Of a DNA stretch of 64,000 nucleotides, positions 2,746 through 53,784 are shown in pieces. The notes below the pieces were generated by a model. The model was not told the origin of the DNA and did not search any database. It saw nothing but the letters and a program-made list of their open reading frames with translations. Positions within the stretch are counted from its first letter, which is position 1; each line of letters starts with the position of its first letter. The translations under genes and the position numbers were made by a program. The stretch comes from Lutibacter sp. (GTDB lineage Bacteria; Bacteroidota; Bacteroidia; Flavobacteriales; Flavobacteriaceae): positions 1 to 64,000 of the forward strand of contig NZ_JABDRI010000074.1 in assembly GCF_013041805.1 (NCBI RefSeq), given 5' to 3'.

Positions 2746-3339
2746 ATGACGAAAAAAATATTAAAATTAATTTCAATTTTTGGGTTTGTTATGTTCATTG
2801 GTTCTTGTGCTAATGACAAGGGATTATTAACTAAAGAGTACGTTTTAGAGCACTTAGCAGAAAAAGAAGCTTTAAGTCCTGTGGTGTTTAAAACAAAACT
2901 ATCTAACATTTATATAAAATCTGTCAGTGATATCGCTAATGGCTCATCTTATTACTCAAAACTATATAATGACGGATATTTAACTACACAGTTACGTTCA
3001 GATATCCCAAATCCATCGACTAGTTATAGACCTTATAAAATAGTTACTACACAAGCTGCAGAACCCTATATATTGGAGAGAAAACCTGATGGTACAGTAA
3101 TTTTGAAAACATTAAAATTTAATGCAGTAGCTGTTAAAGATATTAGATTGCTAAACGACTTTAAAGCGGAAGTAGATGTGGAGTTCAAAAAAACTAAATC
3201 GCCATTTAATAACCCTAATGAAAAAGATTATGCTGGCAGCGGAAAAGAATATCCAAATGATACCCATGTTAAAACTTTAGAATTTAGGAAAAATCAAAAG
3301 ACAAATGAGTGGAAATATCCAATAAAAATAATTTTTTAA
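2746..3339 (+). CDS. hypothetical lipoprotein
   Basis: 197 residues. A lipoprotein signal peptide is visible (KLISIFGFVMFIGSC, Cys at about 21), so the protein is probably anchored to the inner or outer membrane. The rest is soluble, mixed alpha/beta, with basic and aromatic residues and no motif I recognise. It begins a run of closely spaced same-strand genes (gap of 11 bases to the next) that encode envelope proteins. It follows sdpB by about 105 bases and might belong to the SDP locus as an immunity or accessory factor, but nothing in the sequence shows this. Function unknown. Confidence 0.7.
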   Translation: MTKKILKLISIFGFVMFIGSCANDKGLLTKEYVLEHLAEKEALSPVVFKTKLSNIYIKSVSDIANGSSYYSKLYNDGYLTTQLRSDIPNPSTSYRPYKIVTTQAAEPYILERKPDGTVILKTLKFNAVAVKDIRLLNDFKAEVDVEFKKTKSPFNNPNEKDYAGSGKEYPNDTHVKTLEFRKNQKTNEWKYPIKIIF

Positions 3340-3350
3340 ACTAAAATTTC

Positions 3351-3833
3351 ATGAAAAAATTAAAAATATTAACACCTTTTCTAATCTTACTATTAATAAC
3401 ATCATCATGTGGAAGTACAAAAGTCGTTAGGCAATCCAAACGTGTGATAAAAGGAAATTGGACCTTGAACCAAATAACTTACGACAAATCAGATAACTTT
3501 AAAATATCACTTTTTGATGACGCAGCTCAAAATTGTTTCGAAGGCAGTACTTGGCAATTTATAAGTAATAATAATAGTGGTACTTATACCTTAAAAAGTA
3601 CTAGTTGTGATCAACAATTACGTTATTTTAAGTTTACAATTATAGAAGTAGACAAAATAACTGGGTTACATGATTTTTTATTGAAACCAACTAATGCAAA
3701 GGGAAAAAGTGAAAATAATGATAAAGGATATCGTTTAAAGCTAACACAGTTATCTGATACGAATATGCAATGGCAATTATCGCTTTTTGTTGAAGGAAGC
3801 CCGTTTTTAATTAATATGAATTTTATAAAATAA
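3351..3833 (+). CDS. lipocalin-like lipoprotein
   Basis: 160 residues. The signal peptide ends in a lipobox (LLLITSSC, Cys20). The mature part begins with a GNWTLNQITYD motif, the typical N-terminal GxW strand of bacterial lipocalin-like domains (here about residues 35-155). It has alternating polar/hydrophobic strands and a paired Cys pattern (about 62 and 84). In Bacteroidota such small lipoproteins are often encoded beside an OmpA-family gene, as here (7-base gap to the next gene). A ligand cannot be predicted. Likely co-transcribed with 3841 and 4554. Confidence 0.65.
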   Translation: MKKLKILTPFLILLLITSSCGSTKVVRQSKRVIKGNWTLNQITYDKSDNFKISLFDDAAQNCFEGSTWQFISNNNSGTYTLKSTSCDQQLRYFKFTIIEVDKITGLHDFLLKPTNAKGKSENNDKGYRLKLTQLSDTNMQWQLSLFVEGSPFLINMNFIK

Positions 3834-3840
3834 TAACACT

Positions 3841-4548
3841 ATGAAAGCAAAACTAAAAAAAATGATTGTATTATTTATAACGATTACTATAGCGTTAAAT
3901 TATACAAGTTGTAAATCTGTTAAAAATGCAAATAATAAACAAAAAGGGGGTGCAATAGGTGCTGCTGCCGGTGCTGTTATAGGTGGTGTTTTGGGTAATA
4001 ATTTAGGTAAAGGTGGTAAAGGTACAGAAGGGGCAGTTATAGGTGGCGTTCTAGGTGGTGCTGCCGGCGTTCTTATTGGAAACAGAATGGATAAACAATC
4101 TCAAAAAATTGAAGAAGAAATTCCAGGTGCCAAAGTAGAGCGAATTAATGACGAGATTATAGTCACTTTTGATGAAAACAGTGGCGTTTATTTCCCAACG
4201 GGTCAAATGAATTTAAATGAAAGCTCTAAACAAACTTTGGATAAACTTGCTAATGTTTTACTAGAATATACCGATACCAATATTATAGTAGAAGGACACA
4301 CTGATAGTGTTGGAACTGCCTCATCAAATTTAAATTTATCGAAATCTAGAGCCCAATCTGTTACCAATTATTTAATTTATCAAAAAGGTATTAATATAGA
4401 TCGTATAACTACATTATGGTTTGGAGAAACTCAACCTGTATTTGATAATAATACATCAACTGGTAGAGCTAAAAATAGGCGTGTAAATATATCAATAAAG
4501 CCTAATCAAAAAATGATTGATGATGCCAATGAAAAGGCCAAAAATTAA
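3841..4548 (+). CDS. OmpA-family lipoprotein with glycine-zipper segment
   Basis: 235 residues. A signal peptide with lipobox (LNYTSC, Cys24) is followed by a glycine-zipper segment at about 36-80 (repeated GAxxGAVIGGVLG patterns). An OmpA C-terminal peptidoglycan-binding domain covers about 115-220, with the motifs VEGHTDSVGT, NLSKSRAQSV and GRAKNRRVNI. The family tethers the outer membrane to peptidoglycan. The zipper may insert in or pack against a membrane. The gene lies 6 bases ahead of the PH-domain gene and 7 bases after the lipocalin-like gene, suggesting one operon for envelope maintenance. Confidence 0.85.
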   Translation: MKAKLKKMIVLFITITIALNYTSCKSVKNANNKQKGGAIGAAAGAVIGGVLGNNLGKGGKGTEGAVIGGVLGGAAGVLIGNRMDKQSQKIEEEIPGAKVERINDEIIVTFDENSGVYFPTGQMNLNESSKQTLDKLANVLLEYTDTNIIVEGHTDSVGTASSNLNLSKSRAQSVTNYLIYQKGINIDRITTLWFGETQPVFDNNTSTGRAKNRRVNISIKPNQKMIDDANEKAKN

Positions 4549-40513: not shown

Positions 40514-41371
40514 ATGTCAAATTCACCCAAATTAACCATTGACGATTTTAAAAGAATATCATCAAATGATGAGCTTTTACAATTAATAAAAGAAAAGAAT
40601 ATTTCTATTGATAAAGTAAATAAAGATTTATTTTATGAAGAAGAATTACGTCGTTTACAGATTGAATTAGTAAAACTTCAACATTGGATATTAAAAACAA
40701 ATAAGCGTGTTGTAATTATTTTTGAAGGCAGAGATGCAGCTGGAAAAGGAGGTAATATTAGACGTTTTACTGAGCATTTGAATCCAAGATCAATGAGAGT
40801 TGTTGCTTTAACAAAGCCAACCGAAGTTGAAAGAGGTCAATGGTATTTTAGACGTTATATTAAAGAATTACCGGATCCAGGGGAAATGGTATTTTTTGAT
40901 AGAAGTTGGTATAATAGGGCAGTAGTTGAGCCTGTGATGGGTTTTTGTACAGATGAACAATACAATAAATTTATGGTTCAAGTTCCCGAATTTGAACATA
41001 TGCTTTATGAAGATGGCACAACAATTATTAAATTGTGGTTTTCAATTTCAAAAGATGTTCAATTATCACGCTTTAATTCTAGATTAAGTACACCGTTAAA
41101 GCGTTGGAAATTTAGCCCAGTTGATAAAAAAGGACAGGAATTATGGGATACTTATACTCATTTTAGAGAACAAATGTTTAGTAAGACCCATACTAGTTAT
41201 AGTCCTTGGATTACGGTTAAAGCAAATAATAAAAAGATTGCACGGCTAGAGAGTATTAGATATGTACTCTCTCAATTTGACTATGAAGGAAAAGACAATG
41301 CATCTACAACGTTGCTGCCTGATCCTAATGTAATTATGAGGTATTATAGATCATCTAAACAGTTAAATTAA
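40514..41371 (+). CDS. polyphosphate kinase 2 family protein
   Basis: 285 residues. Walker A is FEGRDAAGKGGNIRRF, Walker B/lid are MVFFDRSWYNRAVVEPVMGF, and PVDKKGQELWDTYTHFREQMF closes the fold. PPK2 enzymes transfer phosphate between polyphosphate and nucleotides (NDP to NTP, or NMP to NDP for class II). The class cannot be settled by eye, but single-domain length fits class I or III. It is paired with a second PPK2 gene 2 bases later. Confidence 0.92.
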   Translation: MSNSPKLTIDDFKRISSNDELLQLIKEKNISIDKVNKDLFYEEELRRLQIELVKLQHWILKTNKRVVIIFEGRDAAGKGGNIRRFTEHLNPRSMRVVALTKPTEVERGQWYFRRYIKELPDPGEMVFFDRSWYNRAVVEPVMGFCTDEQYNKFMVQVPEFEHMLYEDGTTIIKLWFSISKDVQLSRFNSRLSTPLKRWKFSPVDKKGQELWDTYTHFREQMFSKTHTSYSPWITVKANNKKIARLESIRYVLSQFDYEGKDNASTTLLPDPNVIMRYYRSSKQLN

Positions 41372-41373
41372 TC

Positions 41374-42165
41374 ATGCATAAAGAATATATTTTAACACAA
41401 GAAGATGTAGATATCCTAAATACAAAGAAAGGATTAAAAGCCATATTATCTAAGGAACCATTTAATATAGAAAAGGCTGTTAGATATGCGAAATATGAAA
41501 AGAAATTAAAAAAATTGCAAGTTGAATTAATTCGATTACAGACTTGGGCAATTGCTGAAAATGAGCGAATTATTGTAATTTTCGAAGGTAGAGATGCTGC
41601 CGGAAAAGGTGGGGCGATTAGACGCGCTACAGAGAGAATGAACCCTAGGCATTTACGAATAGTAGCATTACCAAAGCCTACTGAAGATGAAAAAACGCAA
41701 TGGTATTTTCAACGGTATGTGAAACAATTTCCTAAAGCAGGAGAAATCGTATTTTTTGACAGAAGTTGGTATAACAGAGCAGTTGTTGAACCCGTAAATG
41801 GATTTTGCACTGATGACGAGCACGAAACGTTTATGAATCAAGTTAATGATTTTGAGCGTATGATTACTGAGTCAGGAATACGTTTGGTTAAAATTTATAT
41901 GTCGATTTCAAAACGTGAGCAAGCAAAAAGATTTGAAGATATTAAAAGTAACCCATTAAAGCAATGGAAAATGACAGCTGTTGATGAAAAGGCACAGGAG
42001 TTATGGGATGTATATACAAAGTATAAGAAGAAAATGTTTGAAAAAACAAAGCTAGGTGTTGTAGAATGGAAAATTATTAGAGCTAATAAGAAAACTTTTG
42101 CAAGAGTAGATGCAATAAAGCACGTTCTTAATAGTATACCTTACGATAAAAATAGAGAAGTATAG
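41374..42165 (+). CDS. polyphosphate kinase 2 family protein, second copy
   Basis: 263 residues, paralogue of the preceding protein. FEGRDAAGKGGAIRRATERM and IVFFDRSWYNRAVVEPVNGF carry the P-loop and the DR motif, and AVDEKAQELWDVYTKYKKKMF is conserved. It is intact, so both may be active, perhaps with different nucleotide preference. It is followed by 231 AT-rich bases without a gene, in which only a promoter at 42366 stands out. Confidence 0.92.
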   Translation: MHKEYILTQEDVDILNTKKGLKAILSKEPFNIEKAVRYAKYEKKLKKLQVELIRLQTWAIAENERIIVIFEGRDAAGKGGAIRRATERMNPRHLRIVALPKPTEDEKTQWYFQRYVKQFPKAGEIVFFDRSWYNRAVVEPVNGFCTDDEHETFMNQVNDFERMITESGIRLVKIYMSISKREQAKRFEDIKSNPLKQWKMTAVDEKAQELWDVYTKYKKKMFEKTKLGVVEWKIIRANKKTFARVDAIKHVLNSIPYDKNREV

Positions 42166-44060: not shown

Positions 44061-45161
44061 TTATTGATCTCCAAAAGACATACCAATACCTCGAGCAGTT
44101 TTTACCAATGATGAATTTGGTTTTACAATATTATACTTACTAATTGCTTCTAAAAAAGGAACAGCAACAATACTTGGATGTTGATAAGCTACCATTTTAC
44201 CATAGTTAGCATCAATAGCAAGCTCCATAGCTTTTACACCAAATTGAGTTGCTAAAATCCTGTCGAAAGCAGTAGGGACTCCTCCACGCTGCAAATGACC
44301 TAGTACTGTTTCTCTCATATCAGCATCACAACCAGCTGCTTTTAAATCTTTTAGTAATTTATTTGCAACACCACCTAATTTTAAGTTAGCATTTCCAACT
44401 TCATCACTTTGTTGAGAAAACACATCACCATCTTTAGGTTTTGCACCTTCAGCAATAACAATAATTACATGACCTTTTCCGTCTTTAAAACGCTTATTTA
44501 TAGTTGAAAGAACATGATTGATTTCGTAAGGAATTTCAGGAATTAAACAAACTTCTGCACCACCTGCTAGAGCTGAACTTAAAGCAATCCAACCAGCATC
44601 TCTTCCCATCACTTCAAGAATAATTACACGGTTGTGTGAGGCTGCAGTAGTAACAAGTCTATCAACAGCTTCTGTAGCTATTTGCACAGCTGTTTGGTAC
44701 CCAAACGTATAATCCGTAGCAGATAAGTCATTATCAATAGTTTTTGGAACACCTATAATATTCAATCCTTTTTCAAAAAGAACTTGCGAAATTCTTTGTG
44801 AACCATCTCCTCCAATACTTATTACGGCTTCTATTCCAAGATGTTTTAGTCTTCGTATCATTTCATCAGAACGATCAATAAACGACCATGTGCCATCATT
44901 TTCTTTCACAGGCCAAGCAAGAGGTCCTCCTTTTGTGGTCGTACCTAAAATTGTTCCACCCTGATAGTGAATACCTGAAACGGTTTTCTCATTTAATTCT
45001 ATAATCTCAGTAGGTTCTCTTAAAACACCATCAAATGATTGTATACTTCCTACAACTTCCCAATCTTCAGTTTGTGCAGCGCGCTTAACAATTCCTCTAA
45101 TAACTGCATTTAATCCAGGGCAATCTCCACCTCCTGTTAATACTAATACTTTTTTCTTCAT
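44061..45161 (-). CDS. pfkA: 6-phosphofructokinase
   Basis: 366 residues. VLTGGGDCPGLNAVIRG, GGDGSQRISQ (ATP-type Gly), PKTIDNDLSATDYTFG with the catalytic Asp, EVMGRDAGWIAL, and IPEIPYE are all present. The Lys in PKTIDND combined with Gly in GGDGS is the pattern of the mixed or long-PFK group rather than E. coli PfkA; phosphate donor is not certain. It phosphorylates fructose 6-phosphate in glycolysis. A degenerate paralogue lies 20 bases upstream in the same operon. Confidence 0.9.
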   Translation of the reverse strand: MKKKVLVLTGGGDCPGLNAVIRGIVKRAAQTEDWEVVGSIQSFDGVLREPTEIIELNEKTVSGIHYQGGTILGTTTKGGPLAWPVKENDGTWSFIDRSDEMIRRLKHLGIEAVISIGGDGSQRISQVLFEKGLNIIGVPKTIDNDLSATDYTFGYQTAVQIATEAVDRLVTTAASHNRVIILEVMGRDAGWIALSSALAGGAEVCLIPEIPYEINHVLSTINKRFKDGKGHVIIVIAEGAKPKDGDVFSQQSDEVGNANLKLGGVANKLLKDLKAAGCDADMRETVLGHLQRGGVPTAFDRILATQFGVKAMELAIDANYGKMVAYQHPSIVAVPFLEAISKYNIVKPNSSLVKTARGIGMSFGDQ

Positions 45162-45181
45162 TTTTAATTTTGTAACTATTA

Positions 45182-46249
45182 TTAATCTCCAAAAGAAATA
45201 CCAATTCCTTTTGCAGTATGAATTAAATTATGAGATAATTCAACTTTATTATATTGATCGATGACTTCTTTTAAATCTTTATGAGTTAATTCAAAATTTT
45301 GGTGAACCGCCATAGTTCCGAATTTTTTTTCTTTAACCAATTCAAAAGCTTTTACTCCAAGCTCTGTCGCTAAAATTCGATCAAATGCAATAGGTGAGCC
45401 CCCTCGTTGCAAATGTCCTAAAATTGTTTCTCTAATATCAGCTTGAAAGTTTGATTCTTTTAATTTTTCAGCAATTTTACGAGCAATACTTCCAGATATT
45501 TTTTCATTTTTTTCACCTTTAAAATAGGCGCCTTCAGCAACAACTATATTTGCAAATCCTCTACCATCAGCTGTATATCTCGACTTTAACTTTTGTAATA
45601 CTTTTTCCATGTCAATCGGGATCTCAGGAATTAGACATACTTCTGCACCGCCAGCAATTGCAGCGTGTAGTGCAATCCAGCCCGCATCACGTCCCATTAC
45701 TTCTAAAATTAAAACTCTATTATGCGAATTAGCTGTAGTAACTAATTTATCCACCGCTTCAGTCGCTACATGTGCGGCTGTTTGAAATCCAAATGAAAAA
45801 TCTGTTATTGATAAGTCATTATTTATTGTTTTCGGAATTCCTATGATATTTACGCCTTTTTGAGATAATTTATGGGAAATTTTATGAGACTCATTACCTC
45901 CAATATGTATAACCGCATCAAAGTTAAAAACTTTAAGATTATAAATTAATTTGTCAGTAACATCTTCATTTTTTATAGTTCCATCTTTTTGTTTGACAGG
46001 ATAATTAAAAGGGTTTCGCTTATTATTGGTGGTTAAAATTGTTCCACCTTGTATATGAATTCCTTCAACGCGTTTTTCAGTTAGAGGTACTAATTCCAGA
46101 GGTTCAGATAAAATACCATCAAATCCATTTACACTTCCTATAATTTCCCACTTGGTTTCTTGACTTGCACGTTTAACGATGGCCCTTATTACTGCATTCA
46201 TTCCTGGACAGTCTCCACCACTATTAACAACTAAAATTCTTTGTTTCAT
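45182..46249 (-). CDS. phosphofructokinase paralogue lacking catalytic residues
   Basis: 355 residues from the ATG at 46249, which aligns with the start of the paralogue; a start at 46261 adds 4 residues. The fold matches the intact PFK nearby over the full length (VVNSGGDCPGMNAVIRA, EVMGRDAGWIALHAA, IPEIPID). But GGDGS reads GGNES and PKTIDND reads PKTINND, so the metal/ATP-site Asp-Gly and the catalytic Asp are replaced. The codons (aat gag; aat aat) confirm this. It is probably a pseudoenzyme that regulates, or forms mixed oligomers with, the active enzyme. Confidence 0.85.
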   Translation of the reverse strand: MKQRILVVNSGGDCPGMNAVIRAIVKRASQETKWEIIGSVNGFDGILSEPLELVPLTEKRVEGIHIQGGTILTTNNKRNPFNYPVKQKDGTIKNEDVTDKLIYNLKVFNFDAVIHIGGNESHKISHKLSQKGVNIIGIPKTINNDLSITDFSFGFQTAAHVATEAVDKLVTTANSHNRVLILEVMGRDAGWIALHAAIAGGAEVCLIPEIPIDMEKVLQKLKSRYTADGRGFANIVVAEGAYFKGEKNEKISGSIARKIAEKLKESNFQADIRETILGHLQRGGSPIAFDRILATELGVKAFELVKEKKFGTMAVHQNFELTHKDLKEVIDQYNKVELSHNLIHTAKGIGISFGD

Positions 46250-46460
46250 ATAATTTCCCATTTTAAGGGATTATTTTTTTGTTTGTCGTTTTCTGTACTA
46301 TTAAAATACGAATTAAACGGTTGCGAAATTATACAAAACGATACAATTTAGCAATGATTAAAGTCATATTTAATTCAATTAAAATCTTTTTAGGGCTTTC
46401 CTAATAATCCACTTATATTTCTTAATATTGAAACTTATTACAATATATAATTTATATAAA

Positions 46461-47668: not shown

Positions 47669-49669
47669 ATGAATATAAAGAATTTTTTAAAAGAGTGTAA
47701 TGATAAGGAAGTTTTTAAAAAACTTTCAATTTATATTGTTTCTAGTTGGGTACTTATTCAAGTTTTAGCTGTTACGTGGGAACCTCTTGGTCTTTCAAAA
47801 AAATCAGTCACCTATTTACTAATTATATTATTAATTGGTTTTCCAATTAATATATTTTTAGTTTGGCGCTATCACTTAGTAGGTTTAGACTATAAAAATA
47901 AGAAATTAAATGAAGAAGGTAACTTAGTTAAAGTAGAACTTAAAAATAGTCCATTTCATAAAATGTACTTCTATATTTTGGGGATTATTAGTGTTTTATC
48001 ATTTTTATCTGCTTTACTGATTATTCAAAATAATTTTTCTACACCAAAAATTTCAGATAAAGAAGAGTCAATAAATAATCTAAATGATAAAATAGCTGTA
48101 CTTAGATTTGGGAATAATACAGGTGATGAAAAATATGATATTATCGGGAAAATGACTTCAGATTGGATAATACATGGCATCTCTGAAAATAATGTAGGTC
48201 AGGTTATATCTCCTGAAATTATAGATAATTATTTACTTCAAATAAATAATGCATCTGATTCTTCAGCTCCAATTGACAACAAGAGTGTAATTAATGAATA
48301 TTTCAATGCAGGTAAGCTTATTTCTGGAAATTTTTATTTAGAAAACGAAAAATTATTGTTTCAAGGAACAATAACAAATAGCGCTGAGGATACGCAATTG
48401 ATATCATTTAAATTAATAGAATGTGATTCTAAATCACCGTTAGAATGTATTGAAAAATTGAATCAACTTATTTTAGGATTTTTAATAACAGAAGAAAATA
48501 AAAAAGCGAATTTACAACCAGGCTCTCCTCCTAAATTTGAAGCTTACAAATATCTTTATGAAGCAAAGGCGACAATAGATGATCCTATAAAATATGTTGA
48601 ATTGCTCGATAAATCTATTGAAGCCGATTCTAACTATTTTGAACCGAAGGTTGAAAGAGTAGCACATTATTTCAATACAGGAGATTTTAAAAAATCAGAT
48701 TCTTTGTTAAAAACAATTAATCCAACATCGTTTGCAAACCTAAGACAACAAAATTTGCTAAATATGTATGAGGCATTATTGCGAGGTCAAAACGATAAAG
48801 TTTATTATTACTCAAAAAAGGAATATGATATTACTCCATTTGATTTGTCAACGAATTCAGGTAATATGACAATTGCATTGCAGTTTGTAAATAAACCTGA
48901 AGACGTGATTGCTATTTTTAATGAAATTTCAACTAAAGGAATGGAAATTGAAAATTGTGCTTTTTGTAAAGATAGAATTTATATAAAAGCATTATCAGAA
49001 ATTGAATTAGGTAATTATGATGACGCTATTGATTTACTGACTGAAATTAATAAAACGGTGGATGAAAATCAATTAAAAAAACCATTGTTTTCAGCGCTCA
49101 TTCGTTCTGGTGAAAATAAAGAAGTTGAAGACTTAATTTCAAAATTAGAATATAAAGAATTTTCTGAGATACAAGAGTTATACCTGTATATAGGGAATGA
49201 ATATTTGTTACTAAAATCAATAGATCTGGCAGAAGTTTATTTTAATAAATTGATTCAATCGGCTAGTATTAAACAGAATGACGAAAATTTAGCATTAGCC
49301 TATTTTTATAATCAAAATTTTAAAAAAGCTAAAAATCACTTTGAAAGAGTATTAAAAAAAGATCCTTTAAATGCAGAGTTACTTTCTAAGCTTGCAAGTT
49401 CTCAATTCAAAAATAACCAACATCAAGAGTCTGAAGAAACGCTTAAAAAAATTAGATTACAACAATCTGATTATCAATTTGGAACTATTGATTATGCTTT
49501 AGCACAGTATTATGCAACTATTCGTGAAGACAATAAAGTATTTGAACATTTAACACAAGCAGTTGCTCATGGATATTTATTTACACCAAATTCATATATG
49601 AATGACCCAATATTTGTTGACTATTTTAATGATGACCGATTTAAAAATGTTTTGAACTTTTGGCATTAA
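47669..49669 (+). CDS. membrane TolB-like / TPR protein
   Basis: 666 residues. Membrane helices at about 20-36, 47-66 and 100-119, with WVLIQVLAVTWEPLGLS and IGFPINIFLVWRY, resemble the membrane module of adenylate-cyclase-associated TPR proteins. Residues about 140-270 (KIAVLRFGNNTGDEKYDIIG) match the TolB-like domain. The rest, about 290-640, is TPR-like helical repeats (LELGNYDDAIDLLTEI-type; KAKNHFERVLKKDPLNAELL). No cyclase or HTH is present, so it may be a receptor or scaffold. It is first of the plus-strand genes of the TIR/caspase island, 36 bases before the next gene. Confidence 0.75.
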   Translation: MNIKNFLKECNDKEVFKKLSIYIVSSWVLIQVLAVTWEPLGLSKKSVTYLLIILLIGFPINIFLVWRYHLVGLDYKNKKLNEEGNLVKVELKNSPFHKMYFYILGIISVLSFLSALLIIQNNFSTPKISDKEESINNLNDKIAVLRFGNNTGDEKYDIIGKMTSDWIIHGISENNVGQVISPEIIDNYLLQINNASDSSAPIDNKSVINEYFNAGKLISGNFYLENEKLLFQGTITNSAEDTQLISFKLIECDSKSPLECIEKLNQLILGFLITEENKKANLQPGSPPKFEAYKYLYEAKATIDDPIKYVELLDKSIEADSNYFEPKVERVAHYFNTGDFKKSDSLLKTINPTSFANLRQQNLLNMYEALLRGQNDKVYYYSKKEYDITPFDLSTNSGNMTIALQFVNKPEDVIAIFNEISTKGMEIENCAFCKDRIYIKALSEIELGNYDDAIDLLTEINKTVDENQLKKPLFSALIRSGENKEVEDLISKLEYKEFSEIQELYLYIGNEYLLLKSIDLAEVYFNKLIQSASIKQNDENLALAYFYNQNFKKAKNHFERVLKKDPLNAELLSKLASSQFKNNQHQESEETLKKIRLQQSDYQFGTIDYALAQYYATIREDNKVFEHLTQAVAHGYLFTPNSYMNDPIFVDYFNDDRFKNVLNFWH

Positions 49670-49704
49670 CTAATTTTTAAAAACTAACTAACTAAATCAA
49701 ATTT

Positions 49705-50268
49705 ATGGCTTTTCAAGATTCTACCGAAGAGGTTAAAGAAGTATGGACAACTTTAGAATTTATTAGTAGTATTATAGGGCATATTATTTGGCCTATAACC
49801 ATGCTAATTATTTTTTGGATTTTCAGAAAACATTTTTCAAATATAATGAATAAGTTAAGTGGTATAGACGCCACTGCTACTGGAATTTCATTAAAATTTG
49901 ATCAAGAAATTGATGAAGCAATTGGTGAAAATTTGACGGAACAAACACCTCGATTAATAGCGAAGCAAGCTATGAAAATTGGCGAGAAAAGACCATCTTT
50001 TAAAGAGGTAACACCATATCATCAAATGATGAACATAAGAGATGGTTTAAACCATAGAATTATTCTAAAAGCGCAAGAAAATGATATTTCATCTCAAAAT
50101 AAAACTAATATAGATTTGAAAGACGAATTATTGAAAGCTGAAGCTATTTCATTTCAACAGGCAAAATTATTTCAAACCTTACTGCAATTAACAAACTCAA
50201 ATTTTACTAATATCACACAATCACAAGTCAATAAGGTAAAATTGTTATACAGTAATTTAAAATTATAA
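49705..50268 (+). CDS. small membrane-anchored protein of the caspase locus
   Basis: 187 residues: one membrane helix (about 17-40, TLEFISSIIGHIIWPITMLI), then a cytoplasmic helical domain starting NKLSGIDATATGISLKFDQEID. Polar and charged afterwards, with no motif I recognise. It lies 36 bases after the TPR gene and 6 bases before the caspase gene, so it is probably translated together with them. It might anchor or regulate the caspase-like effector; this is inference only. Confidence 0.65.
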   Translation: MAFQDSTEEVKEVWTTLEFISSIIGHIIWPITMLIIFWIFRKHFSNIMNKLSGIDATATGISLKFDQEIDEAIGENLTEQTPRLIAKQAMKIGEKRPSFKEVTPYHQMMNIRDGLNHRIILKAQENDISSQNKTNIDLKDELLKAEAISFQQAKLFQTLLQLTNSNFTNITQSQVNKVKLLYSNLKL

Positions 50269-50273
50269 TTTCC

Positions 50274-52496
50274 ATGAAAAAGTTAGAAAATGCGTATGCT
50301 TTAATAATAGGTGTAGAAGATCCAGAACTAAATACATATATAGATGCAAAAGCTATTTATGATATTTTGATTGATGAAAATCTTTCAGGCTACGATCCAA
50401 ATAATATTATTTTAGTAACAGGAAAAGAATCTACAAAACAACATATATTAGATGCTTTTGATAAACTTCAAGAAATAACTAATGAGGACTCTTCTGTTTT
50501 TTTGTACTATACTGGTCATGGTGGATATGAATTTAATGAATACTTCATTCAGCCTTCTGATATGAGCAATGAAAGTGATGAAATATTTAAGGAAACTTGG
50601 ATAAGTGCTAAGACTGTTAAGGATAAATTGGATGGGTTAAAATCTAAGCGATTAATATTTTTCTTAGATTGTTGTCATGCAGCTGGAATAACACAAGGCT
50701 TCAATTTGCATAACTCGAAAGAGGTTAAAAGTAAATCTTCATTAAGACCAAAGAGTTCTCAAATAAGAGATGGGCTGGGGCAAAAAATTGATAATGAGCG
50801 TGGAGTAACCATCGTTTCTTCGTGCTGGGAAGACCAAATCTCATTTCAACCAGAGGGTCAAAATAGTTTCTTTACAAAATGTATATTAGATGTTTTTCAA
50901 GGCAAACATAAATCTGAATTTAGGGATCCATTTATTCGAATTTATGAAGTTTTAGATTATATTCAATGGGAAGTTCCAAGATTAGCTGAAATGGTGGGTA
51001 AAAAACAGAACCCTTATGCTAATTTGCAAGCGTATGATAACTTTACCCTTAGTTATGTTCCGAAAAAAATTAGAGAAAAGCTTTCTGTGGAAAAATGGGA
51101 ACAGCCAAATAAAGTTTCTAGTAAAGAATTAAAAGAAGTTGTTACCTCTTATAGACAAGATGAAAAGTCCAATAATTTGTTGCTTTTTATACATGGTTTT
51201 TCTGGTGAGGCTGCTGATACTTTTGGTATTATCCCTGAATTATTGATGAATGATAAAAGAATGGATGGTTGGGATATGAAGCCATTGGGTTTTTCACAAC
51301 ATGTAAATCCAGAATTTGGAAAAGACATATGGGGTGGAACGAAAGACATTGATAAAATCGCTAAATTTTTAGCAAAATCATTTAAGTATAAATTTGATAA
51401 ATACGATAGACTTGCCATTGTAGCGCATAGCCTTGGTGGTTTAATAGCTCAAAAAGCCATTTTAAGCTTAGATGAAGATTTAAGAAATAAGATATCACAT
51501 TTAATACTTATAGGTTCCCCTAATAATGGAATTAACCCAGATGTATTAGCAAATACTTTTGATAATAAATATTTACAATTAAGCAGTGATGGAGATTTTA
51601 TTAAATCCTTGCGCAGTAATTGGGATACTGAATTTAAGAATGATTATCCTTTTGAATTAAAAGTTGCCGCAGCTACCAATGATGAGTATGTAGCTATTGA
51701 TTCTTGTTTTGAACCTTTTGAGGATGACTATTGTGAAATGGTTGATGGTAATCACTTATCTATGGTTAAACCTAAAGATGAGTTTAATGATTGTTATCTA
51801 TTGATAGTAAATACATTAACAGGGAATAATTTTTATAATGAATATACAAATAAAGAGGAAATTAATTTAGCATTAGGTAAATATAATACCGTTGTTAAAA
51901 AGTTATTACCCGTTGTAAATTCAATTGATGCGAATGGATTAAAACGGCTTGTTTTTGCATTAGAAGGGCTCGATAGAAAAGAGGAAGCTTTAGAAATTTT
52001 AATAAGTCATCCGCTAGCTAAGAATAATTCAGACCTTTATGGTTTAATTGCTGGAAGATATAAGCGATTATATTTGAATACATATTCAAGTGAAGATGGA
52101 GATAAATCATTTGAGTATTACACGAAAGGGTATGAGCTTGCCATTCAAGCAAATAATTTAGATCAAATTTATTATCACGCAATCAATCTTGCTTTTTTAA
52201 GTCTTGTGAAGTATCATAATGAAAATGATATGCTCAAATATGCAAATAAAGCCATTGAAGCCGCAGAAGCTAGTAGTAAAAATGTTTGGCAGTTTGCAAC
52301 TTTAGCCGAAGCATATTTATACGCCAGAAAATTTGATAAGTCAAAAGAATATTATTTGAAGGCTACTAAAATGTCAGGAATAAGAGAAAAATTATCAATG
52401 CATACTAATGCATATAAGGCTTATACAGTTTTAATGAGTACCGATAATCCTGAAGATGATTTTATAAAGTTTTTGTATGAACATTTCTTAATGTAA
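50274..52496 (+). CDS. caspase-like / alpha-beta hydrolase / TPR fusion protein
   Basis: 740 residues, soluble, no signal peptide. Residues 1-260 are a caspase-like (C14) domain: NAYALIIGVED, the catalytic His at H82 (YYTGHGGYEF) and Cys at C134 (FFLDCCHAAG). Residues about 298-520 are an alpha/beta hydrolase: LLLFIHGFSGEAADTF, nucleophile elbow AHSLGG (Ser386), GSPNNGINP, and His494 in DGNHLSMV. The remainder (about 540-740) is TPR-like. Both catalytic sets are intact, so this looks like a two-enzyme effector joined to a protein-interaction domain. It follows the small membrane gene by 6 bases; the TIR gene is 88 bases downstream. Confidence 0.85.
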   Translation: MKKLENAYALIIGVEDPELNTYIDAKAIYDILIDENLSGYDPNNIILVTGKESTKQHILDAFDKLQEITNEDSSVFLYYTGHGGYEFNEYFIQPSDMSNESDEIFKETWISAKTVKDKLDGLKSKRLIFFLDCCHAAGITQGFNLHNSKEVKSKSSLRPKSSQIRDGLGQKIDNERGVTIVSSCWEDQISFQPEGQNSFFTKCILDVFQGKHKSEFRDPFIRIYEVLDYIQWEVPRLAEMVGKKQNPYANLQAYDNFTLSYVPKKIREKLSVEKWEQPNKVSSKELKEVVTSYRQDEKSNNLLLFIHGFSGEAADTFGIIPELLMNDKRMDGWDMKPLGFSQHVNPEFGKDIWGGTKDIDKIAKFLAKSFKYKFDKYDRLAIVAHSLGGLIAQKAILSLDEDLRNKISHLILIGSPNNGINPDVLANTFDNKYLQLSSDGDFIKSLRSNWDTEFKNDYPFELKVAAATNDEYVAIDSCFEPFEDDYCEMVDGNHLSMVKPKDEFNDCYLLIVNTLTGNNFYNEYTNKEEINLALGKYNTVVKKLLPVVNSIDANGLKRLVFALEGLDRKEEALEILISHPLAKNNSDLYGLIAGRYKRLYLNTYSSEDGDKSFEYYTKGYELAIQANNLDQIYYHAINLAFLSLVKYHNENDMLKYANKAIEAAEASSKNVWQFATLAEAYLYARKFDKSKEYYLKATKMSGIREKLSMHTNAYKAYTVLMSTDNPEDDFIKFLYEHFLM

Positions 52497-52535
52497 ATAG
52501 CTGATTATAAAATGATTTAATCATGATGTAATAAA

Positions 52536-52550
52536 TTTTACTATATTAGT
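52536..52550. promoter_or_regulatory. 15-bp element, second copy, upstream of the TIR gene
   Basis: TTTTACTATATTAGT, identical to 47585-47599. It lies 34 bases before the TIR ATG, and the leader contains ACTACTACTAACTAAA. Confidence 0.5.
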
Positions 52551-52584
52551 AAACAAATACTACTACTAACTAAATTTTTTTATT

Positions 52585-53784
52585 ATGTCTTCGAATACTA
52601 TTTTTATTAGTTATTCTCGAAAGGATGCTGATTTTGTAGCAAAATTCACTCAAAGCTTAAGAGAAGCTGGCGCAACTTTGTGGCTAGATAAACAAATAAG
52701 GCCTGGTGGTCATTGGGATGCTTCAATTGAGTTAGCCTTAGAAACTTGCCAAGATGTGATTTTGATCATGTCAAAAAACTCTGTAGAATCTGGAAATGTA
52801 ATGGATGAAATTTCTTATGCATTGGAAGAAAGAAAGCGTGTTATTCCTATAAAAATTGAAGAGTGCGATGTTCCATTCAGATTAAGAAGAATTCAGCATA
52901 TTGATTATTATTTGAATGAAGAAAACAGCATGAAGCTTTTGCTATCAACTTTAGATGTTAAACCACTTAAACCTGTTGATTCTCAAAATATTATTACTCC
53001 CAAATCTGGTATTGAGATAAAAAAGGAACCTGAAAAAGCTTTTAACGAAAAAAAAGAACAAGTTAAAACTGTAGATAAAAAGAACATTGAAGAAAAAAAA
53101 GAGTCTTTTCCTAAAGATACTGCTTCTAAAAAAAAGAGTAATTTACTATTGTATGGTATCGGAGTTGCAGTGATTGCGGCAGGTGCATTTTTTATGACCC
53201 AAATGGGCGGTGAAATTGATAACAAAGATAAAGAAGACGTTATTCCCATTGAGCCTATAGCAGTTATAACTGATGCTGAGGATTATGCTAAAATAGGTGA
53301 AAGTATAGAAATAATAGATTATGAAACTCATTTAGCGAACTTTCCTAATTGTGAGCACAGCAATGAGATAAATTTAATTTTAAATGAGCTAAGAGCTGTT
53401 GCAGAAGAGGAAAATGAGTACAATGTTGCCGTTTCACAAAATACTTCAACGGCTATCTTAAATTATTTAATGAAATATAAAAAGAACGCTATCTTTTATG
53501 AAAATGCGTTAACGGAGTTAGATAGGTATTTTACGAAAACTGGGTTTGTTCAGTTTTCTGCATCAAATGGAGAATTATATTTCACAATTTTTGAAGATGA
53601 GACTGGATTTACACCAGAAGTAAATGATTTAATTTTTGCAAGAACGCAACGATTCATTCACAAAGGACCTTATGGTTCTCCAGGATTTGGAAATAAAATT
53701 CATAGTACATCCAAAGACGAAGTCTTTAAAGTAATAGATGTTCAAATGAGCGGAACGGCCTATTGGATACAAGTCTCTTTTTAA
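52585..53784 (+). CDS. membrane-anchored TIR-domain protein
   Basis: 399 residues. Residues 1-125 are a TIR domain: TIFISYSRKDADFVAKF, LWLDKQIRPGGHWDASIELAL with E49 at the position of the NADase catalytic Glu, VILIMSKNSVESGNVMDEI and RVIPIKIEECD. A Lys/Glu-rich linker (about 140-185) leads to a single membrane helix (about 186-208). A C-terminal region of about 190 residues is predicted on the outer face and ends in a beta-rich part (VNDLIFARTQRFIHKGP). TIR domains of bacteria often degrade NAD or signal when a threat is sensed. Its place in the caspase island suggests a role in the same response. Ends at a strong terminator. Confidence 0.85.
   Translation: MSSNTIFISYSRKDADFVAKFTQSLREAGATLWLDKQIRPGGHWDASIELALETCQDVILIMSKNSVESGNVMDEISYALEERKRVIPIKIEECDVPFRLRRIQHIDYYLNEENSMKLLLSTLDVKPLKPVDSQNIITPKSGIEIKKEPEKAFNEKKEQVKTVDKKNIEEKKESFPKDTASKKKSNLLLYGIGVAVIAAGAFFMTQMGGEIDNKDKEDVIPIEPIAVITDAEDYAKIGESIEIIDYETHLANFPNCEHSNEINLILNELRAVAEEENEYNVAVSQNTSTAILNYLMKYKKNAIFYENALTELDRYFTKTGFVQFSASNGELYFTIFEDETGFTPEVNDLIFARTQRFIHKGPYGSPGFGNKIHSTSKDEVFKVIDVQMSGTAYWIQVSF

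Follow-up and report, generated by a model that had tools for sequence, protein, structure and literature searches.

A probable phosphofructokinase pseudoenzyme encoded in tandem with a predicted ADP-dependent phosphofructokinase in Lutibacter and related Bacteroidota

We analysed a stretch of 64,000 nucleotides from Lutibacter sp. (contig NZ_JABDRI010000074.1, hereafter the window), which carries two neighbouring genes of the phosphofructokinase (PFK) family PFK-A. Gene B (45182..46249, minus strand; 355 amino acids) encodes a paralogue that very likely has no PFK catalysis. Gene A (44061..45161, minus strand; 366 amino acids) encodes an intact paralogue with the motif GGDGSxxI and is predicted to be an ADP-dependent phosphofructokinase. 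The reading that we favour, and consider fairly probable, is that B is catalytically dead and serves the phosphofructokinase of A as a regulatory or assembly subunit.

Both genes were identified from their translations, family profiles and alignments. The preliminary description of the locus gave the positions of B, which are those of a real open reading frame (ORF), and left its strand unstated. An upstream ATG at 46261 is a possible alternative start; eight relatives of B from the genus begin with MKQ or MKK, matching the start at 46249. B and A match the Pfam family PF00365 over most of both lengths (329.8 and 324.1 bits, respectively; cut-off 30.9), and the two proteins are 56% identical. 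Among the NCBIfam models, B passes the cut-off of just one, and that model carries the name of an ATP-dependent kinase.

Residues lost and residues kept

Alignment of B with PfkA of Escherichia coli K-12 reveals the substitutions D103N, G104E and D127N; A keeps all three residues. The motifs read IGGNES and PKTINND in B, and IGGDGS and PKTIDND in A. The replacement of GGDGS by GGNES and of TIDND by TINND, as first described for the second PFK gene, is thus confirmed in both the translation and the PfkA alignment. The codons of N103-E104-S105 (residues 119-121 of B), which replace the D-G-S of the phosphate-donor site, lie at 45887..45895 on the minus strand according to the translation. The codon of N127 (residue 143), which replaces the general-base Asp127, lies at 45821..45823 on the same strand, the whole motif being matched at 45815-45835.

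Relatives were collected by scanning a single genome for each species (GTDB 220), and the best 80 of 238 loci were taken. The scan used two peptide patterns, neither of which includes residues 103, 104 or 127; it is biased, since both patterns derive from B itself. The B set consists of 16 proteins, that of the window and those of 15 loci (L049-L062 and L068) with at least 69% identity to B, the next relative having 44%. Two of these loci (L062 and L068) end inside B at contig ends and are excluded from all counts of 14 and from the substitution-rate estimates given below.

Asn103 and Asn127 are present in all 16 B proteins, all of which read INND at positions 126-129. Gly104 is never kept, its place being taken by Glu (12 proteins), Arg (two), Gln (one) or Thr (one). 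Asp127 is present in 14/14 A proteins and in 15/15 A-like proteins. Among the 14 full-length B genes, each of these Asn residues is encoded by AAT in some and by AAC in others. Fixation in 16/16 proteins together with this synonymous codon variation indicates that the substitutions go beyond chance.

The preliminary description had called all three residues essential. For Asp127 this agrees with published work; for Asp103 and Gly104 it stands in part on general knowledge of the E. coli enzyme, in which Asp103 has a role in metal binding. In the parts of two papers that were consulted, Asp127 is described as the general base of PFK (PMC12203962; PMC10339645), and the second of them, in the same parts, has it needed whatever the substrate (PMC10339645).

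The sugar site presents the opposite picture. T125, R162, M169, G170, E222, R243, H249, R252, D129 and R171 are retained in 14/14 full-length B proteins, and so are all eight of the fructose 6-phosphate (F6P)-site residues checked; we take T125, R162, M169, E222, R243, H249 and R252 to be those that bind F6P. R243 is contributed to this site by a neighbouring subunit. The same holds for R162 in PFK oligomers, according to the sections seen of PMC12203962.

A comparison of alignment columns gives the same contrast. There are 152 columns in which at least 27 of the 29 A and A-like proteins agree. B retains 103 of them in 14/14 proteins, is mixed at 33 and has lost 16. The three donor and catalytic positions, which were set beforehand by the preliminary description, are all among the 16 lost columns (chance 0.001), and the eight F6P positions are all among those kept (chance 0.04). 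In 12 of the 16 lost columns, a single new state is found in 14/14 B proteins (two of these states are gaps); they include N8, S9, M16, N71, N103, H106 and N127. Most of the lost columns presumably line the donor pocket.

The claim that the fold had been well kept is borne out by prediction. An AlphaFold2 model of B, built from 38 sequences, has the complete PFK fold, with a predicted local distance difference test score (pLDDT) of 93.3 and a predicted template-modelling score (pTM) of 0.90. Its superposition on E. coli PFK (1pfk) has a Z of 39.0, with 319 residues fitting to 1.9 A. A joint single-chain model of B and A, built from only two sequences, gave no usable structure (pLDDT 40.8, pTM 0.25) and speaks neither for nor against contact between them.

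Linkage, distribution and rarity

The 16 B proteins come from nine Lutibacter genomes, three other metagenome-assembled genomes (MAGs) of Flavobacteriaceae and four MAGs of Bacteroidales/Salinivirgaceae. Since several of the MAG contigs span only 4-6 kb, there may be binning errors among the Bacteroidales assignments. Lutibacter flavus DSM 27993 and L. litoralis JCM 13034 are among the pair-bearing genomes. An intact A lies directly downstream of B, on the same strand, in 14/14 loci whose contig continues past B.

Among 38 genomes of the genus, some of them incomplete (down to 62%), both genes were found in nine, neither in 29 and one alone in none (E 1e-85). Besides the window's own, the other eight pair-bearing genomes were recovered again by the species-level scan. 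In a class sample of 395 genomes, 17 besides that of the window have one gene at the same threshold; in each of these 17 it is an intact gene, never a B. In a phylum sample of 395 genomes, the codon pattern for P-x-TIDND is present in 266, not every match having been checked as a PFK. The pattern for P-x-TINND is present in six, and only the window's own match lies within a PFK.

Ancestry and selection

In a tree of 53 proteins, in which eukaryotic sequences were not included, B and A form sister clades (ultrafast bootstrap 100) with stems of 0.40 and 0.13, respectively. Of the single-copy genes, those of L014 and L015 are the nearest to the two clades, with weak support (62). Mean distances are 0.24 within B and 0.14 within A, indicating that B evolves faster. 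On the evidence of the sister clades and of the unequal stems, B and A are products of one duplication, which was followed by a burst of change in B and then by constraint.

This constraint is apparent in the pairwise ratios of non-synonymous to synonymous substitution (dN/dS, NG86), whose medians are 0.117 for B (62/91 usable pairs) and 0.069 for A (61/91). No internal stops were found in the nine genus copies of B. The preliminary description had looked to substitutions fixed across a clade under purifying selection as a sign of a pseudoenzyme role, and to sporadic ones as a sign of decay. The uniform Asn103 and Asn127, together with the low dN/dS, are of the former kind, and changes of the latter kind were not seen at these positions. 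Decay of B to a pseudogene was rejected as a candidate on the intact frames, the dN/dS and the fixed substitutions.

The distance matrices of B and A are correlated (r 0.87; 0/5000 permutations as high). In an rpoB tree of 31 of the 38 genus genomes, those bearing the pair are scattered, and many nodes are weakly supported. The tree excludes one pair-bearing genome with an rpoB fragment (G442), three genomes with partial sequences (G005, G439 and G024) and three with no match (G015, G016 and G002). Genome G017 stands away from G440 and G445 in this tree, yet its B and A group with theirs. The scattered rpoB placement and the agreeing B and A matrices make it seem that the two genes were gained and lost together, and suggest transfer of the B-A module as a unit or its repeated loss.

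Phosphate donor of A

Shen et al. 2024 assign GGDGSxxG to ATP, GGDGSxxI to ADP and GG(D/E)D(S/T) to diphosphate (PPi) as donor, and report rare members of the ADP-dependent PFK-A type in the FCB group, Bacteroidota included, in the portion of the paper available (PMC11609450). A reads GGDGSQRI, and the full GGDGSxxI is found in 14/14 A and 15/15 A-like proteins. Two more distant proteins (L028 and L029), which read GGDGTxxS, were left out of the A-like set. Ile108 is also present in 14/14 B proteins, which keep only this residue of the motif, D and G being gone. Neither protein has the PPi motif: B reads NES, NQS, NTS or NRS at these positions, and A reads DGS.

The best model for A is PRK14071 (410 bits, under its cut-off of 544 bits), and the compared sets contained no characterised cyanobacterial ADP-dependent PFK-A sequence. 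Because it carries the published motif, A is predicted to depend on ADP, and it is probably an ADP-dependent phosphofructokinase. The two genes had previously been placed in an operon with B beside an active copy. They are indeed close together and on the same strand, but the motif of the intact copy is that of ADP-dependent PFK-A and not the ATP motif of E. coli.

Genomic context

B precedes A on one strand, with a gap of 20 nucleotides (45162..45181, minus strand, from the ORF positions). The flanking genes, an EamA transporter and a helicase, are both on the plus strand, so that B and A appear to be read as a two-gene unit of their own. Bacteroidetes-type promoters have the consensus TTG-spacer-TAnnTTTC, and a possible match lies about 70-105 nucleotides upstream of B (46319..46354, minus strand). 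The pattern used was loose and was searched without a shuffled control. Across 15 loci (L055 left out), it is found 103-116 nucleotides upstream in eight, elsewhere in two, and is absent in five. No neighbour beyond the pair is common to every locus; the EamA and helicase genes accompany the pair in some members of the genus.

Two tandem polyphosphate kinase 2 (PPK2) genes lie near the pair in the window (40514-42165, plus strand). The first was identified by Pfam, and BLAST places the second with it. In locus L060, too, a PPK2 gene (3317-4219) comes after the pair, and these are the only two loci with PPK2 near the pair. A tie between PPK2 and an ADP-using PFK would be attractive, but two loci are too sparse to use. 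Beside the pair, on the plus strand (47669-53784), are genes for a TPR protein, a small orphan, a caspase-domain protein with esterase-like and TPR-S domains, and a TIR-domain protein. We take this cluster to resemble caspase/TIR defence or cell-death cassettes.

The same scan, with the bias described above, also turned up degenerate PFK-A proteins elsewhere. A Planctomycetota protein (L064:5902-7074) has QRT and TISND (Asp127 replaced by Ser), an Oscillospiraceae protein (L073:1948-3138) has AET and SVEND (Asp127 replaced by Glu), and a protein of Metabacillus bambusae (L092:5998-6960) has NGS and TVNND (Asp127 replaced by Asn). No second PFK is present in the fetched stretches around these three genes, and the paired arrangement is therefore not repeated there; their genomes have other PFK-like genes elsewhere. 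PFK pseudoenzymes may have arisen several times.

Function of the pair

We propose the following course of events. A PFK-A gene with the ADP-PFK motif would have been duplicated in tandem to give B and A. Phosphoryl transfer would have been lost in B through D103N, D127N and the introduction of a side chain at position 104, its donor site being remodelled to a mostly fixed new set of residues with the F6P pocket left intact. The two proteins would form an assembly in which working A sites stand beside B sites occupied by a sugar-phosphate effector. Residues from a neighbouring subunit complete the F6P site, and B keeps both R162 and R243, so that such an assembly could hold working A sites. 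Association of A and B is likely; effector binding by B and its control of A are plausible.

Several observations weigh against this proposal. The linkage and the correlated trees would also be expected from the common descent of two neighbours. The F6P site is retained only modestly more often than chance predicts (the 0.04 given above). Two effector-site residues of E. coli PfkA, R154 and K214, are missing from both A and B, and position 187 is Glu in A and Asp, Asn or Glu in B, so that control of the E. coli type is not suggested. Asn103 is not decisive by itself, given that an ORF of the diphosphate type PRK14072 (L090) has GGNDS with an intact TIDND. Further PFK genes are present in 6/6 pair-bearing genomes looked at, and B could therefore act on another partner. 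The source genome of the window has four further PFK-family genes, of which two belong to the ATP type and have their motifs intact.

These additional enzymes, together with the kept F6P site and the invariant new residues of the donor site, are consistent with B being a dead kinase that does not assemble with A and has a task of its own, either sensing a sugar phosphate or moonlighting. We consider this unlikely, as A is linked to B in every testable locus, the two are present or absent together in the genus, and B retains the PFK fold along with the arginines that a subunit next to it would need. The same linkage, co-occurrence and predicted fold would agree with a purely structural or stabilising B, required by A for its assembly and having a sugar site with no regulatory ligand. 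This too seems improbable to us: the invariant new donor-site residues and the intact F6P site suggest selection on ligand binding.

There is little to commend the idea that B remains catalytic, using a different phosphate donor or a different chemistry, with some other residue standing in for Asp127. Its GGNES does resemble the GGNDS of some diphosphate PFKs, such as the PRK14072-type ORF, and H106, next to the motif, is both new and invariant. However, the PPi signature (PMC11609450) is unmet, residue 104 is Glu, Gln, Thr or Arg and hence provides no conserved acid, and the general base that the available part of PMC10339645 describes as needed for any substrate is Asn in every B protein. 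A PPi-dependent enzyme was rejected on the motif and on the loss of Asp127. A decaying pseudogene would account for the lost catalytic residues and for the faster change and longer stem of B than of A. It is extremely improbable in view of the absence of internal stops in the genus copies, the low dN/dS and the identical Asn103 and Asn127.

A regulatory or assembly role in the phosphofructokinase of A thus remains our preferred explanation of B. We more tentatively envisage, as a possibility somewhat short of an even chance, that a bacterial lineage independently evolved the division of labour of eukaryotic PFK as two genes. A dead sugar-phosphate-binding subunit would allosterically control an ADP-dependent catalytic subunit, the entry to glycolysis would be ADP-run and sensor-gated, and the module would be carried or lost as a unit.

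PFK is a textbook allosteric enzyme, and here an unfused bacterial duplication exhibits the same catalytic loss as the eukaryotic one. In the pair, a putative control subunit would also share an operon with a predicted enzyme of the ADP-dependent PFK-A type, which has been described from cyanobacteria. B itself would be a pseudoenzyme that automatic annotation would call an ATP-dependent kinase. As the pair is present in species with deposited strains (the two named above), the proposed route is directly testable.

Comparison with known systems

No bacterial precedent for a dead PFK subunit was found among the papers listed in searches of the open-access literature, most subscription journals lying outside it. 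The words inactive, heterotetramer, regulatory subunit and non-catalytic are absent from a recent PFK review. The ADP-dependent PFK-A of cyanobacteria and alphaproteobacteria (PMC11609450) has the full GGDGSxxI, as do A and the A-like proteins; the accessible text of that paper mentions no dead partner for it, and the word 'heteromer' has 0 occurrences there.

Outside the PFK family, the S-adenosylmethionine decarboxylase (AdoMetDC) prozyme of Trypanosoma brucei is, like the proposed B, a dead paralogue that partners an active enzyme, which it activates, as stated in the extract seen of PMC5201418. It differs in belonging to another enzyme family and to a eukaryote, and in that its complex has been shown experimentally, whereas B and A are known from sequence.

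The plant PPi-dependent PFP is similar to the pair in having regulatory (alpha) and catalytic (beta) subunits of the PFK family that are encoded by separate genes; these form a heterotetramer, according to the portion consulted of PMC3653104. Unlike the plant proteins, B is short (355 amino acids) and scores 80.2 bits against the long PPi-PFK model TIGR02477, versus 359.5 against TIGR02483. The predicted donor of its partner is ADP and not PPi.

The eukaryotic comparison made in the preliminary description proved apt. The C-terminal half of eukaryotic ATP-PFK is, like B, a duplicated PFK unit in which residues 103 and 127 have been replaced: that of human liver PFK has GGFEA and TISNN aligned to the GGNES and TINND of B. 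In the sections seen of PMC12203962, the richer control of eukaryotic PFK is thought to have been gained by duplication and fusion of a bacterial-like gene with loss of catalysis in one half, the C-terminal half having lost its ATP pocket entirely and its F6P pocket having become an effector site. The eukaryotic halves are fused, with the active one first. The bacterial proteins are encoded by two genes, with the inactive one first; their ORFs are divided by a stop and, across loci, by some 20-59 nucleotides, and no fusion of the eukaryotic type is present. The bacterial duplication appears to be separate from the eukaryotic one, B being sister to A in a tree without eukaryotic sequences. A dismantled donor site combined with a kept sugar site is nevertheless the pattern of the eukaryotic C-terminal half, and B is by this likeness likely a dead sugar-phosphate-binding subunit.
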